NCBI GenBank assembly: GCA_030524205.1
Contig: JAUNGZ010000007.1
Coordinates: 1 to 46,382 of the forward strand
Direction of reading: 5' to 3'
Length of the DNA stretch: 46,382 nt
From: Eubacteriales bacterium
GTDB taxonomy: Bacteria > Bacillota > Clostridia > Oscillospirales > Butyricicoccaceae
The notes beneath the pieces were generated by a model. It was not told the origin of the DNA. It searched no databases and saw only the letters and a program-made list of their open reading frames with translations. Shown piece by piece: positions 11,676 to 28,963 of the stretch. The number at the start of each line of letters is the position of its first letter. Position 1 is the stretch's first letter. Made by a program: the position numbers and the translations under genes.

Positions 11676-12077
11676 ATGGCTACCTTTCATTTAAAAGTGC
11701 TGACGACCGAGCGCTGCTTTTTCGACGACGAGGTGGAACAGATCGTTGTGCGCACCACGCAGGGCGACGCGGGCATCCTGCCGAACCACATCCCGTATAC
11801 CGCGGCGCTGGGGATCGGCGGGCTGACCATCATTCAAAACGGCGCCGAGCGCGTCGCGGCGATCGCGGGCGGCTTTGTCGACGTATCGAAGGAGCAGACC
11901 GTCGTTCTCGCCCGCACCTGCGAATGGGCGGACGAAATCGATATCAACCGCGCCCGCGAAGCGGCCGAGCGCGCCCGTCAGAAGCTTCAGCAGAAGGCGA
12001 GCGAGCACGAACAGGACGTTGCGCAGGTCAAGCTGAAAAAAGCGGTCAACCGCATGCGCATCGCGGGAGAAAAATAA
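11676..12077 (+). CDS. atpC: F1 ATP synthase subunit epsilon
   Basis: The 133-residue epsilon subunit has an N-terminal beta sandwich (about 1-85), with the GDAGILPNHIPY turn, and a C-terminal two-helix hairpin rich in Ala/Arg/Glu that can inhibit ATP hydrolysis. It is the last gene of the operon and is followed by a hairpin array that includes a strong terminator. Confidence 0.96.
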   Translation: MATFHLKVLTTERCFFDDEVEQIVVRTTQGDAGILPNHIPYTAALGIGGLTIIQNGAERVAAIAGGFVDVSKEQTVVLARTCEWADEIDINRAREAAERARQKLQQKASEHEQDVAQVKLKKAVNRMRIAGEK

Positions 12078-12081
12078 GCTT

Positions 12082-12278
12082 TCGTTTGAAGCGTACAGCT
12101 TTAAACGAGGGGACGCTTTTCCGGGCCTTGCCCGGAGAAGGCTATTGCAGAGAAACAGGCTCGGAATTTCGATTCCGAGCCTGTTTCTCTGTTTGTCTAA
12201 AAAGCACGGGCAAAGCTCGCGCTTTTTAGGAAACCGGCGGCGAGGCCGCCGGTTTCTATTACAATGCGCCTGCGGGCG
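12082..12278 (+). repeat. Hairpin array A (downstream of atpC)
   Basis: Six consecutive inverted repeats fill this stretch: 12082-12108 (11 bp, one G-T pair), 12116-12140 (11 bp), 12148-12191 (20 bp, see terminator entry), 12198-12228, 12230-12256 (perfect 12 bp), and a weak GC-rich one near 12266-12278. The last three make a module also found in the arrays at 18773 and 27392. The 31 bases 12198-12228 are identical to 27493-27523. Family and function are not recognised. Together with the downstream promoter it accounts for the 327-base gene-free gap. Confidence 0.8.
12148..12197 (+). terminator. Terminator of the ATP synthase operon
   Basis: A perfect 20-bp stem (12148-12167 with 12172-12191) closes on the very stable TTCG tetraloop and is followed by TTTGTCT. 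It is the third hairpin of array A. Confidence 0.85.
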
Positions 12279-12364
12279 AGGATGCGGGAGACGAAAGGAC
12301 GGTCGCGCCGACGCGGCGCGGGGTTGGACGAAGGACGGGAGATGTGGCGGAGCGGGCGGGAATG

Positions 12365-17836: not shown

Positions 17837-18769
17837 ATGCAGTTAAAAGAGTTCGGCGTCAGTCTGGGCGATTTGATACAGGAATTCAACTTCGAGATCG
17901 TTCACGGCCCCGAAGGGTTTGAAAAGGTTGAGATCACAAAGGACGACGTCAACCGGCCGGGCCTGCAGCTGGCCGGATTCTTCGATTATTTCGATCCCAA
18001 CCGCATTCAAATTATGGGCAAGGTCGAGTCCAGCTATGTTGAGCTGATGGAGCCGGAGGCGCGTCAGGCCTGCTTTGACCGCCTGTTTTCGACCGGCATT
18101 CCGGTGCTGCTGATTTCGCGCAATATCGACGTGTTTCCGGAATGCCTTGCGGCGGCGGAAAAGTACAAGGTTCCGATTCTGCGCACCAACGATTTTACCT
18201 CTACTATCATGAGCGCGGTGATCGCGTCGCTCAAGGTGAACCTTGCCCCGCGCGTCACGCTGCACGGCGTGCTGATCGAGATTTACGGCGAGGGCGTGCT
18301 GCTGCTCGGCGACTCGGGCGTGGGCAAATCCGAAACCGCGATCGAGCTGGTCAAGCGCGGACACCGCCTGATCGCGGACGACGCGGTCGAGATCAAGCGC
18401 GTATCGGATAAAACGCTCGTCGGCACCGCGCCGGAGGTGATCCGGCACTTTATCGAGCTGCGCGGCATCGGCATTGTGGACGTGCGGCGTATTTTCGGCG
18501 TAGGCGCGATCAAGATGACCGAAAAGGTCGAGCTTGTCATCAATCTGGAGCCTTGGGAGGACGGCAAGCAGTACGACCGCCTCGGCATGGACGGGCAGAC
18601 GACCAGCATTCTCGATATCGCGGTGCCCAGCCTGACCATTCCGGTCAAGCCCGGCCGTAACCTTGCCGTTATTATTGAGGTTGCGGCGATGAACGACCGC
18701 CAGAAGAAGATGGGCTTTAACGCGGCGAAGGAGCTGCAGGAGCGCATGCTCAAGCAGTACGGGAACTGA
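17837..18769 (+). CDS. hprK: HPr kinase/phosphorylase
   Basis: A bifunctional 310-residue enzyme that phosphorylates and dephosphorylates Ser46 of HPr, the master signal of carbon catabolite control in Firmicutes. The N-terminal domain (about 1-130) is followed by the kinase domain with Walker A GDSGVGKS at 158-165 and the following DDAVEI acidic segment. His143 in TLHG matches the conserved active-site histidine. Its own promoter is visible. The PHP and ROK genes downstream are co-directional, with hairpin array B in between. Confidence 0.97.
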   Translation: MQLKEFGVSLGDLIQEFNFEIVHGPEGFEKVEITKDDVNRPGLQLAGFFDYFDPNRIQIMGKVESSYVELMEPEARQACFDRLFSTGIPVLLISRNIDVFPECLAAAEKYKVPILRTNDFTSTIMSAVIASLKVNLAPRVTLHGVLIEIYGEGVLLLGDSGVGKSETAIELVKRGHRLIADDAVEIKRVSDKTLVGTAPEVIRHFIELRGIGIVDVRRIFGVGAIKMTEKVELVINLEPWEDGKQYDRLGMDGQTTSILDIAVPSLTIPVKPGRNLAVIIEVAAMNDRQKKMGFNAAKELQERMLKQYGN

Positions 18770-18772
18770 AAC

Positions 18773-18966
18773 TCGTTTGAAAGCACGCTTTCAAACGAAT
18801 TTTGGGCTGTGCCGCGCTTGCAGCGCGGACAAAGCCCGGCGGAAAAAAGTTCCGACAAGCGAAACTTTTTTGCCGTCTTGTATAAAAAGCCCGGCAGAGC
18901 TGGGCTTTTTATGAAAATCGCCGTATCCCGGCGATTTTCTGTTGTAAGGGCGCGCCGGAGGCGCGC
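18773..18966 (+). repeat. Hairpin array B (between hprK and the PHP gene)
   Basis: Six inverted repeats follow one another with almost no spacing: 18773-18798 (perfect 12 bp), 18804-18837 (GGGCT and CCGCGC stems), 18843-18871 (9 bp with A6/T6 flanks), 18883-18911 (13 bp, one G-T pair), 18913-18939 (perfect 11 bp) and 18950-18966 (perfect 7 bp). The last three correspond in order, flanks and spacing to the modules in arrays A and C. The first shares the TCGTTTGAA half with the first hairpin of array A. The array ends about 20 bases before the next ribosome binding site. Confidence 0.82.
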
Positions 18967-26938: not shown

Positions 26939-27385
26939 ATGAAAGTCATTCTTACAACAGATGTTAAGGGAAAGGGCAAGAAGGGCGACCTGATCGAGGT
27001 CAGCGAGGGCTATGGCCGGAACTTTCTGATGCCGCGCGGCTTGGCGGAGCTGGCCACCGCCGATACGCTGAACGTAAAGCGCGCGCAGGACGAGGCGCAT
27101 GCCCGCAAGGTCGCGCTCGACCAGCAGGCGGCGCGTGACGCCGCGGAGAAGCTCAAGATCAGCCCGGTTAAAGTGCCGGCCAAGGGCGGCGCGGGCGGCC
27201 GTCTGTTCGGCGCGGTCACTTCCAAGGAAATCGCGGAGGAGCTGAGCAAGCAGTACGGGCTCAATGTGCCCAAGCAGAAGATCGTCCTTGACGAGCCGAT
27301 CAAAACCTTCGGCGTGCACAAGGTGAAAGCCAAGCTGTATCAGGATATCGCGGGAGAGATTTTGGTGCAGGTAGTGGAGGCGTAA
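26939..27385 (+). CDS. rplI: 50S ribosomal protein L9
   Basis: A 148-residue large-subunit protein. The N-terminal 23S-binding domain is canonical (MKVILTTDVKGKGKKGDLIEVSEGYGRNFL), joined by a long helix to the C-terminal domain containing LFGAVTSKEIAEEL. Start ATG with AAAGGAG upstream. Located 50 bases after gdpP. Confidence 0.97.
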   Translation: MKVILTTDVKGKGKKGDLIEVSEGYGRNFLMPRGLAELATADTLNVKRAQDEAHARKVALDQQAARDAAEKLKISPVKVPAKGGAGGRLFGAVTSKEIAEELSKQYGLNVPKQKIVLDEPIKTFGVHKVKAKLYQDIAGEILVQVVEA

Positions 27386-27391
27386 ACGCCT

Positions 27392-27574
27392 TATAAGGGA
27401 CTTCAAAAGTCCCTTATATACGCGAACCGATTCCCAAGGAAACCGGTTCGCGATATCCGAATGACGCCGCCCAAGGCGGCTGGGTCGGAGTATAAAAAGC
27501 ACGGGCAAAGCTCGCGCTTTTTATGGAAAATGCAGCTTGCTGCATTTTCCTACTTTAATACGCGCGCGGCGCGC
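27392..27574 (+). repeat. Hairpin array C (between rplI and dnaB)
   Basis: Consecutive inverted repeats: 27392-27418 (perfect 12 bp), 27421-27452 (9 bp plus inner 4 bp), 27466-27480 (perfect 6 bp), 27493-27523 (31 nt identical to 12198-12228), 27525-27550 (perfect 12 bp, two-base loop) and a GCGC-rich one at 27562-27574. The last three are the shared module. The array ends nine bases before the dnaB ribosome binding site. It lies between two genes that are normally co-transcribed. Confidence 0.82.
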
Positions 27575-27598: not shown

Positions 27599-28963
27599 TT
27601 GGATGAACTTTTGATGCGACAGGTGCCGCAGGATTTGACGGCCGAGCAGTCGCTGATCGGCGCGATGCTGGTCGACCCGAACTGCATCCCGGAAGTGATC
27701 GAGCAGGTGCGCGCGGACGATTTTTACGCGGACGAAAACAAGCGCATTTTTGAAACGATCTACTCCATGTTCAATGGCGCGCAGAAGATTGATCCGGTCA
27801 CGGTGCTCGATATGCTGACCCGGCTCGGCTATTATGATGAGGCGGGCGGCAGAGCGTACCTGTTCCAGTTGATGGAGGTTACGCCGGGCACGCGCAATAT
27901 CGCGGAATACGTGCGCATTGTGCGGGACAAAAGCCTGCTGCGCCAGCTTGCCGACGCGGGCGCGGAAATCCAGCAGAACGCGCTTGAGGCGCACGGCGAG
28001 GCTTCCTCGATCGCGGAGCTTGCCGAGCAGCGCATTTACAATATCCGGCAGGGAAGGGAGATCAAGGGCCTTTCCCGCCTAAGCGAGGTCATCGCCGACC
28101 TGTATACCGAGCTCGACGAGCGCGCCAAGTCGGACAGCGATATCCCCGGCATGTCGACCGGATTCCACGCGCTCGATACGGCGCTGACCGGCCTGAACAA
28201 ATCCGATTTAATTTTGATTGCTGCCCGCCCCGGCATGGGCAAAACGGCGTTTGCGCTCAATATCGCGCTGAACGCCGCCAAGGCCGCGGTGAAGGGCAAG
28301 CCAAAGGGCTACAAGAAGGGCACTGGCGTGTGCGTGTTCCAGCTTGAAATGGGCAAGGAACAGCTTGCCAGCCGCTTTTTGTCCAGCGAAGCGCTGATTG
28401 AGTCGCAAAAGCTCAAAACCGGCAATCTGGACGGGGACGACTGGGTCAAGATCGCCCGCGCCTCGGGCGTGCTGGCGGGCCTGAACATTTATGTGGACGA
28501 CAACCCGGCGATCACCGTCGCGGAAATTAAGGCGAAGTGCCGCCGGCTGGGCGATGAGCTCGGACTGATCGTCATCGACTATCTCCAGCTGATGCATTCT
28601 GGGGGCCGGCATTCGGACAACCGCGTGCAGGAGGTTGCCGAGATTTCGCGTTCGCTCAAGATCATGGCGAAGGAACTGAACGTGCCGGTCGTCTGCCTGT
28701 CGCAGCTTTCGCGTGCGTCCGAGCAGCGAGCGGACAAGAGGCCGATGCTGTCCGACCTGCGAGAATCGGGCGCCATCGAGCAGGACGCCGATATCGTTAT
28801 GTTTATTTATCGCGACGACTATTACGACGATGAGAGTGAAAATAAAAATATTGCTGAAATCCTGATCGCCAAAAACCGTCATGGCGCGACCAATACCATC
28901 GAATTGCAGTGGGTTGGACAGTATACCACCTTCTCCAATCCCGACCGGATTCACGGGGATTGA
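27599..28963 (+). CDS. dnaB: Replicative DNA helicase DnaB
   Basis: The hexameric replication-fork helicase, 454 residues. The N-terminal primase-interacting helical domain (about 5-110) is followed by a RecA-like motor with Walker A ARPGMGKT at 209-216, Walker B LIVIDYLQLM and the RSLKIMAKEL segment. TTG at 27599 is chosen: GGAAGGAG is eight bases upstream, and the frame upstream of that runs through the hairpin array. The 3' end lies four bases before tilS. Confidence 0.96.
   Translation: MDELLMRQVPQDLTAEQSLIGAMLVDPNCIPEVIEQVRADDFYADENKRIFETIYSMFNGAQKIDPVTVLDMLTRLGYYDEAGGRAYLFQLMEVTPGTRNIAEYVRIVRDKSLLRQLADAGAEIQQNALEAHGEASSIAELAEQRIYNIRQGREIKGLSRLSEVIADLYTELDERAKSDSDIPGMSTGFHALDTALTGLNKSDLILIAARPGMGKTAFALNIALNAAKAAVKGKPKGYKKGTGVCVFQLEMGKEQLASRFLSSEALIESQKLKTGNLDGDDWVKIARASGVLAGLNIYVDDNPAITVAEIKAKCRRLGDELGLIVIDYLQLMHSGGRHSDNRVQEVAEISRSLKIMAKELNVPVVCLSQLSRASEQRADKRPMLSDLRESGAIEQDADIVMFIYRDDYYDDESENKNIAEILIAKNRHGATNTIELQWVGQYTTFSNPDRIHGD

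Follow-up and report, generated by a model that had tools for sequence, protein, structure and literature searches.

Hairpin arrays behind genes of Agathobaculum are probably mobile DNA that inserts at transcription terminators

Three intergenic gaps in a 46,382-nucleotide stretch of an Eubacteriales bacterium (assembly GCA_030524205.1, contig JAUNGZ010000007.1; hereafter the window) carry the same ordered set of hairpins, in which stem sequences change and pairing is kept. What kind of element is this: an RNA structure of the host, a palindrome without function or a piece of mobile DNA? The first-pass annotation, made from the letters alone, had described a module of three hairpins at sites A, B and C, and all three modules were present as it had them. 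The first hairpin of the module (here H4) was identical over 31 nt between A and C (TAAAAAGC...GCTTTTTA) and altered at B with pairing retained, and the second (H5) had three different stems, every one perfectly paired. The third (H6), described as a palindrome at each site, was clear at B and C and weak at A (GCGCCTGCGGGCG). It was the extent of the unit that had to be revised: a hairpin scan of the window, together with reading, revealed three extra hairpins 5' of the module at all three sites, and the module is only the 3' half (H4–H6) of an array of ~190 bp with about six hairpins, H1–H6. The arrays extend over about 12082–12279 (A), 18773–18966 (B) and 27392–27574 (C); H3 is the hairpin that differs most among copies, and H1 of site A reaches 12079–12111 in the scan when weaker outer pairs are included (Table 1). 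Some copies in the own genome have a G-rich stretch (GGGGATGCGGGGGACGGGGGACG...CGCGCCGCCACGGCGCGGGGTTGGACGA) 3' of H6, as seen at ~12279–12345 of the window and at L016, L017, L028, L030 (in tandem), L036, L179, L192, L199, L207 and L208.

Table 1. Hairpins of the three arrays and their neighbouring genes, in window coordinates.
Feature	Position	Strand	Remarks
atpC (ATP synthase epsilon)	11676..12077	+	5' neighbour of site A; Pfam PF02823/PF00401
Site A H1	12082..12108	+	4 nt past atpC stop codon; locus L257
Site A H2	12116..12140	+	hairpin scan
Site A H3	12148..12191	+	20-bp stem; hairpin scan
Site A H4	12197..12229	+	first hairpin of the first-pass module; GC stem then CTTTTTA
Site A H5	12230..12256	+	hairpin scan
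Site A H6	12266..12278	+	weak GC hairpin, read by eye; R1 match ends at 12279
hprK (HPr kinase)	17837..18769	+	5' neighbour of site B; Pfam PF07475/PF02603
Site B H1	18773..18798	+	3 nt past hprK stop codon; by eye; scan extends to 18766–18805
Site B H2	18804..18837	+	type II form; by eye
Site B H3	18843..18871	+	type II form, AGTTCCGA...GCGAAACT; hairpin scan
Site B H4	18882..18912	+	hairpin scan and R1 match
Site B H5	18913..18939	+	hairpin scan
Site B H6	18950..18966	+	by eye and R1 match
rplI (ribosomal protein L9)	26939..27385	+	5' neighbour of site C; Pfam PF03948/PF01281
Site C H1	27392..27418	+	type IV form; 6 nt past rplI stop codon; hairpin scan
Site C H2	27421..27452	+	type IV form; hairpin scan
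Site C H3	27455..27491	+	type IV form; interrupted stem, inner GCCGCC/GGCGGC; by eye, aligned with rpmJ-rpsM type IV copies
Site C H4	27492..27524	+	hairpin scan, R1 match and terminator scan
Site C H5	27525..27550	+	hairpin scan
Site C H6	27562..27574	+	by eye and R1 match
dnaB	27599..28963	+	3' neighbour of site C; Pfam PF03796/PF00772

In the genome of the window (G000; 2.21 Mb in 47 contigs, 82% complete), BLAST with site A hit 37 places, the query included, indicating a repeat far beyond chance. The matched regions shared the hairpin plan; 5' of H4, at least four forms could be distinguished. As the first-pass annotation had proposed, we built a covariance model from copies (R1; H4–H6 of 23 clean copies) and searched the genome and its relatives. 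R1 gave at least 111 matches at E ≤ 0.001 in the own genome (150 of 3063 candidates scored, antisense shadows included); the stretches fetched from it held 137 matches, corresponding to 101 that do not overlap, with some shadows perhaps remaining among the weakest. The 8 lowest-scoring of these were left out of all own-genome counts of mismatch polarity, stop-codon distance, flank duplication and U-tracts, for which 93 were used. Sorted by regular expressions, the 93 copies comprised 25 of type I, 14 of type II, 11 of type IV, 6 of type III (the two middle hairpins being a single long stem), 4 mixed and 33 unclassified. At L014, L033 and L185 of the own genome, two arrays stand head-to-head, inverted relative to each other, so that H6 of one faces H6 of the other. 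Several arrays, from different species, hold a nested element in or beside H4/H5, namely a second palindromic insert of ~56 nt (AGCCCGTAGGCCTCTATCC...CCGCCGCCGTGCGGCG...ATGAGAGCAAA) (L357, L358, L362 and L364 in G010; L012, L023, L026 and L032 in the own genome).

R1 was then applied to 60 genomes including G000, with 75 candidates scored in each. Every one of the 24 Agathobaculum congeners had matches, from at least 6 to at least 61 each, whereas outside the genus only weak matches appeared, in 7 of 35 genomes: one each in 3 of 12 genomes from other genera of the family, and 1 to 5 in 4 of 23 from the wider order. The element is essentially confined to the genus Agathobaculum. DnaB of the window's genome is 95% identical to that of an uncultured Agathobaculum sp. 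and 75% to that of Butyricicoccus pullicaecorum. A plasmid collection (2 queries), phages (1 query) and viral contigs (2 exact patterns) gave no match to the element. The first-pass annotation knew no named family of this layout, and that view held: no Rfam 15 family reached its gathering score within the window, and an E-value search of four loci returned only 7 matches, all sub-threshold. Two sub-threshold matches lay over the site A array (SpF25_sRNA, 28 of 48 bits; Collinsella-1, 18.6 of 35 bits). A limited search of the open-access literature yielded no description of a similar hairpin-array family, or of a terminator stem-loop as target duplication. A survey of structured RNAs in human microbiomes reports 250 palindromic candidates, and its main text mentions neither Agathobaculum nor Butyricicoccus (PMC8040213).

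Pairing in the arrays was compared with 500 shuffles. In alignment A2 (H4–H6, 23 copies, 31 pairs), 91.5% of cells were paired and 17 of 31 pairs had changed on both sides, with counts above all 500 shuffles; in alignment A1 (15 full-length copies of one type, 61 pairs), the values were 92.9% and 47 of 61, and no measure was reached by any of the 500, the structures having been drawn from those same copies, so that A1 and A2 are favoured against slid controls. H6 in A2 showed no two-sided changes, only one-sided changes and unpaired cells. Orthologous copies between rpmJ and rpsM (9 sequences from nine genomes, being 9 of the 12 type IV loci, as the pattern missed L372, L373 and L383) had 94.8% of cells paired and 15 of 37 pairs changed on both sides, a level found in 0 of 500 shuffles; a count of further pair types was less clear (54 of 500). 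That is, stems turn over wholesale and pairing is retained. The first-pass annotation had proposed a repeated, ordered, structured element, and had named a lack of further copies, or of covariation beyond chance, as what would speak against it. We found many more intergenic copies (101 matches) and massive covariation, with pair counts that no shuffle of 500 reached. Its further claim that structure is conserved holds in so far as stems are re-paired far beyond shuffles; covariation alone does not show a structured RNA.

The polarity of mismatches bears on this point. Over distinct hairpins of 93 own-genome and 68 congener copies, we counted 3748 Watson–Crick cells, 20 G.U, 56 A.C and 19 others, with G.T and A.C treated alike, H4 and conserved-mismatch columns excluded, and L060–L066 and duplicate fetches left out of the congener set. 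The G.U to A.C split was 12 vs 37 in the own genome and 7 vs 21 in congeners. Per hairpin, 47 contained only A.C, 18 only G.U and 2 both (sign test p = 4e-4, kinship not corrected for). H4 is an exception, with a conserved G.T near the apex in 54 of 74 cells, and its other mismatches lean towards A.C (17 vs 7). Copies behind an opposite-strand gene showed 8 A.C against 1 G.U, indicating that the bias belongs to the element's own orientation. An A.C on the element strand corresponds to G.T on its complement, so that the complement seems to be the strand on which pairing matters, as DNA or as antisense RNA. Selection on a sense RNA as the sole cause of the covariation is therefore disfavoured, A.C being commoner than G.U on the element strand as read. 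More generally, a functional RNA cannot be deduced from strong covariation alone when the sequences are intergenic repeats of bacteria.

Palindromes can also be kept perfect by quasi-palindrome correction, in which template switching occurs during replication. The arrays could then be functionless palindromes, the repeat spreading by unequal recombination. We regard this as improbable: it would account for the near absence of one-sided changes, the few G.U cells and the free variation of stem sequence, but it does not predict the A.C/G.U asymmetry, and it leaves unexplained the fixed hairpin order, the conserved linkers, the anchoring behind stop codons and the terminator duplication described below.

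Position relative to genes was assessed with a purpose-made codon-usage caller, not a standard program. None of the 101 copies lay inside a predicted gene. Among 94 copies with a called upstream gene, 75 had that gene on the same strand (47 between co-directional genes, 24 convergent, 4 without a downstream call); the remaining 19 comprised 15 between two opposite-strand genes, 3 divergent and 1 without a downstream call. The distance from the stop codon to H1 could be measured in 49 sense-side copies and was 1–7 nt in 37 of them.

This anchoring is what a host element would show, namely a composite terminator or 3'-UTR RNA element that is cotranscribed with the gene before it, ends or protects its mRNA, is kept by selection on RNA structure and has spread by recombination. 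A scan for terminators flagged H4 as terminator-like at sites A and C, and our simple purpose-made detector found a separate U-tract terminator within 120 nt in just 19 of 93 copies; most arrays therefore either stop transcription themselves or lie between genes that share a transcript. The same scan, however, gave a clear excess over shuffles at site A only (4 vs 0.9) and was hardly above them at B (1 vs 0.7) and C (1 vs 0.6); at site B, H4 was flagged on the opposite strand. The 15 copies between two opposite-strand genes also fit a host terminator poorly, as does the excess of A.C over G.U on the sense strand, which persists behind opposite-strand genes.

Orthologous loci, read by eye, speak on both sides. 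Behind atpC (20 genomes with an orthologue; the paralogues L277–L279, at 29–30% identity, excluded; L275 and L276 judged by eye), the full array was found solely in G000, and 18 of 20 genomes lacked the element. Nearly all of these 18 had an ordinary terminator hairpin near the stop codon; across congeners, the hairpin behind atpC started 0–9 nt after the stop in 16 of 17 measured cases and at 30 nt in the other. In G000, no ordinary terminator remained before the promoter-like TGCTATAAT of the next gene, and the array stands in its place, as would be expected if it were a terminator of the host. In G015 (L261), a partial inverted element lies between two copies of a terminator stem-loop of which related genomes have one, and this locus is a direct occupied/empty comparison for terminator duplication. 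Behind hprK, 22 genomes gave 1 full type II-like array (G000), 3 of type IV (in G011, in G017 and, truncated at the contig end, in G020), 9 remnants or single hairpins (remnants in G004, G007 and G013; single H5-like hairpins in G012 and G022; single H4-like hairpins in G003, G005, G006 and G018) and 9 with nothing recognisable.

The gap between rplI and dnaB was readable in 23 of 25 genomes (L151 and L171 left out as not readable) and held 15 full arrays and 1 truncated array (G001); it held none in 7 (G012, G017, G002, G009, G024, G010 and G021). In the same gap of G024 and G010 (L168 and L169), a different AT-rich inverted repeat (AGTAATTAGTAATTGCGGGG...AATTACTAACTACTAATTCC) stands in the array's place. 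Upstream of rpsM, by comparison, an array was present at 18 of 18 readable loci (16 with rpmJ in view; L385 and L386 left out as not readable), 12 of type IV and 6 of type III, indicating that position and plan were kept and the sequence type exchanged. This constancy, with pairing retained among orthologues, argues for a host terminator, and it resembles a feature conserved by the host more than it does a selfish insertion. A conserved stretch resembling a leader (ACACGACAAGCACGC...GGCGCTGCAGGGGCGGAGGCGG...CAGTG) lies 3' of the array and precedes rpsM in the 18 readable genomes (L367–L384); from its sequence it is a possible ribosomal-protein autoregulatory leader, and in L374 it had no Rfam match at E ≤ 0.5.

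Further evidence of movement came from two congeners, G010 and G024, in which many copies are recent and near-identical. Most of these copies carry an extra hairpin, H0 (CAGACTGTCAAAA...TTTTGACAGTCTG), before H1 (motif in 36 of 38 loci), and end in or near TTTGACAMGCTG, which forms an imperfect end pair with CAGRCTGTCAAAA; this left end was not seen in own-genome copies. Host terminator stem-loops flank the recent copies on both sides. We took 40 loci, namely 20 of 40 R1 matches in G010 and 20 of 42 in G024, which were mostly the better-scoring ones and no random sample; two (L330 and L348) were dropped, as no left end was found. Left and right flanks reached a local alignment score of at least 16 at 33 of 38 loci, compared with 6 of 736 random pairings. 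Since 4 of the 33 positives and 1 of the 5 negatives repeat an insertion of another locus, merging these leaves terminator duplication at 29 of 33 distinct insertions.

What is duplicated is the stem-loop itself, 21–44 nt long, separated from the left end by 0–3 nt in 32 of 33 cases (16 nt in L334); as a rule, a U-tract follows the right-hand copy. In L318, L347 and L364 the two copies are reverse complements of each other, so the loop is flipped. No duplication was detected at 5 of the 38 loci: L324 and L344 (one insertion), L325, where merely half a stem-loop is repeated, and L326 and L331, which are short-form copies without H0 directly behind a stop codon. At L324/L344 the element starts where an open reading frame ends, and the stop codon of that frame appears to come from the element. 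Further duplicated stem-loops were read by eye at L358, L364 and L393–L395 and, in other congeners, at L249 (G015) and L243 (G023); no duplication was seen at L242 (G015). Between genes of G010, lone H0-like hairpins (CAGRCTGTCAAAA...) occur beside ordinary terminators without H1–H6 (L389, L390 and L391), which suggests remnants or a minimal form.

Mobility with duplication of the terminator hairpin is thus well supported in congeners, and because insertion there is targeted to terminators and duplicates their hairpins, we read the element first as mobile DNA. The window's copies are probably older descendants of a non-autonomous mobile element of ~180–270 bp, made of tandem hairpins, which homes to terminators and duplicates the terminator hairpin. 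Observed in its favour are the many copies, the fixed hairpin order, the replacement of stems, the polymorphic loci, the post-stop position and the terminator duplication in congeners. Terminator duplication around recent copies is a signature of insertion, and it counts against the host-terminator explanation, which we consider rather unlikely on balance. The two are nonetheless compatible, as a mobile element may be co-opted as a terminator.

Against the mobile reading, no flanking terminator duplication was found in the own genome at any of 88 copies (92 scored; control 3 of 271), after removal of four above the threshold that were slicing artefacts at the edges of fetched stretches. These copies have neither H0 nor a recognisable left end, and their shared descent by insertion is accordingly inferred from the H1–H6 plan and the sequence. 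They might also have arisen by a second insertion mode next to stop codons.

For the mobile element, we propose a mechanism in which a trans-acting enzyme would recognise the folded ends (imperfect CAGnnTGTCAAA termini) together with an extruded terminator hairpin. Cutting of the two strands at opposite bases of the hairpin, followed by gap filling, would then duplicate the hairpin. The right-hand terminator copy, usually with its U-tract, could still terminate, which would make the insertion nearly harmless. The window copies would be eroded older descendants, without the left terminator copy and H0 that they once had, and would occupy the terminator's place, where H4 may act as a terminator. 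As a mode of transposition this may be one for which we found no description: the target would be an extruded terminator hairpin (cruciform) cut on both strands at opposite bases, so that stagger, duplication and hairpin are the same, with a copy sometimes flipped (L318, L347 and L364); the body would be an array of DNA hairpins with freely diverging stems; and terminators would be used rather than destroyed. We put this forward tentatively, as a possibility that falls short of probable.

A search for an autonomous copy in G010 was made with exact end motifs (32 right-end and 76 left-end matches). At the 15 right-end and 10 left-end places outside R1 matches, the sequence near the motif was read by eye and 2.6–5 kb were searched for the motifs. 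No autonomous copy was found there: the places were chance matches in coding sequence, lone H0 hairpins and copies that were degenerate, deleted or nested. No two ends more than ~270 nt apart were seen as a pair, and none enclosed a gene. No mobilising enzyme emerged from this search or from that for Y1 transposases, a point against the mobile reading.

A known mobiliser of hairpins is the Y1 (RAYT/TnpA) transposase, which would act on single-stranded hairpins as in REP/BIME-like repeats. The palindromic, extragenic, high-copy arrays with strand-asymmetric mismatches would suit such an enzyme, and Y1 genes scored above the cut-off in G010, G024, G015 and G004, recent near-identical copies being present in G010, G024 and apparently G015. 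However, 20 of 25 genomes, the own included, had no Y1_Tnp match and yet all carry the element; none of 10 fetched Y1 loci had the end motif, and just two weak model matches occurred there (L303 and L304). To our knowledge, Y1 elements do not duplicate their targets, and we counted the target duplication against this explanation, which we hold to be very improbable. The Y1 transposase was also rejected as the mobiliser: Y1_Tnp (PF01797) had no match in the own genome (82% complete) and matched in 5 of 25 genus genomes, 4 of them above the cut-off, at loci unlinked to the element.

If the proposed mobile element is real, its target specificity would lie in a shape, the terminator hairpin, and not in a sequence, and the length of the duplication would be set by the secondary structure of the target; the mobilising enzyme would then be a test case for structure-guided integration. 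One genus would then have remodelled the 3' ends of core genes with repeats, including those of ATP synthase and ribosomal proteins and the gap before dnaB.

Among known systems, group IIC introns recognise terminator stem-loops and attC sites as insertion sites. They share the terminator stem-loop as a target with the element described here, which differs in that the hairpin is duplicated. Cas1–Cas2 duplicates a palindromic repeat target during CRISPR insertion; its target is of similar length, and the likeness is an analogy only; the targets here differ at every locus. The closest kinds are REP/BIME, BOX/SPRITE and MITEs. REP/BIME and REPIN with RAYT likewise comprise many extragenic palindromes, and BIMEs are composite (PMC2817692, PMC3116915); they consist of one palindrome in alternating orientation, whereas different hairpins stand here in a fixed order, and 20 of 25 genomes lack a Y1 transposase match. 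BOX of Streptococcus pneumoniae is modular and strongly folded, SPRITE is terminator-like, lies close to gene 3' ends and may be co-opted as a terminator, and both are nearly absent from other streptococci (PMC3049150). The present array is set apart from them, by those descriptions only, in the number and order of its hairpins, and for SPRITE no target duplication could be established in that study (PMC3049150), in contrast to the duplicated terminator here. MITEs are small, non-coding elements of high copy number in few species, with target duplication, no encoded enzyme and terminal inverted repeats (PMC10969869); recent copies in G010/G024 end in an imperfect pair, the left end of which was not seen in own-genome copies. 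The element resembles them as a short non-coding intergenic repeat (101 matches, none in predicted genes) with target-site duplication in G010/G024 (33 of 38) and not in the own genome (0 of 88). It differs from MITEs in that no parent IS was found with exact end motifs in G010, in its body of hairpins with freely exchanging stems, and in its duplicated target, a whole terminator stem-loop of 21–44 nt, the length of which follows the hairpin rather than a fixed stagger.
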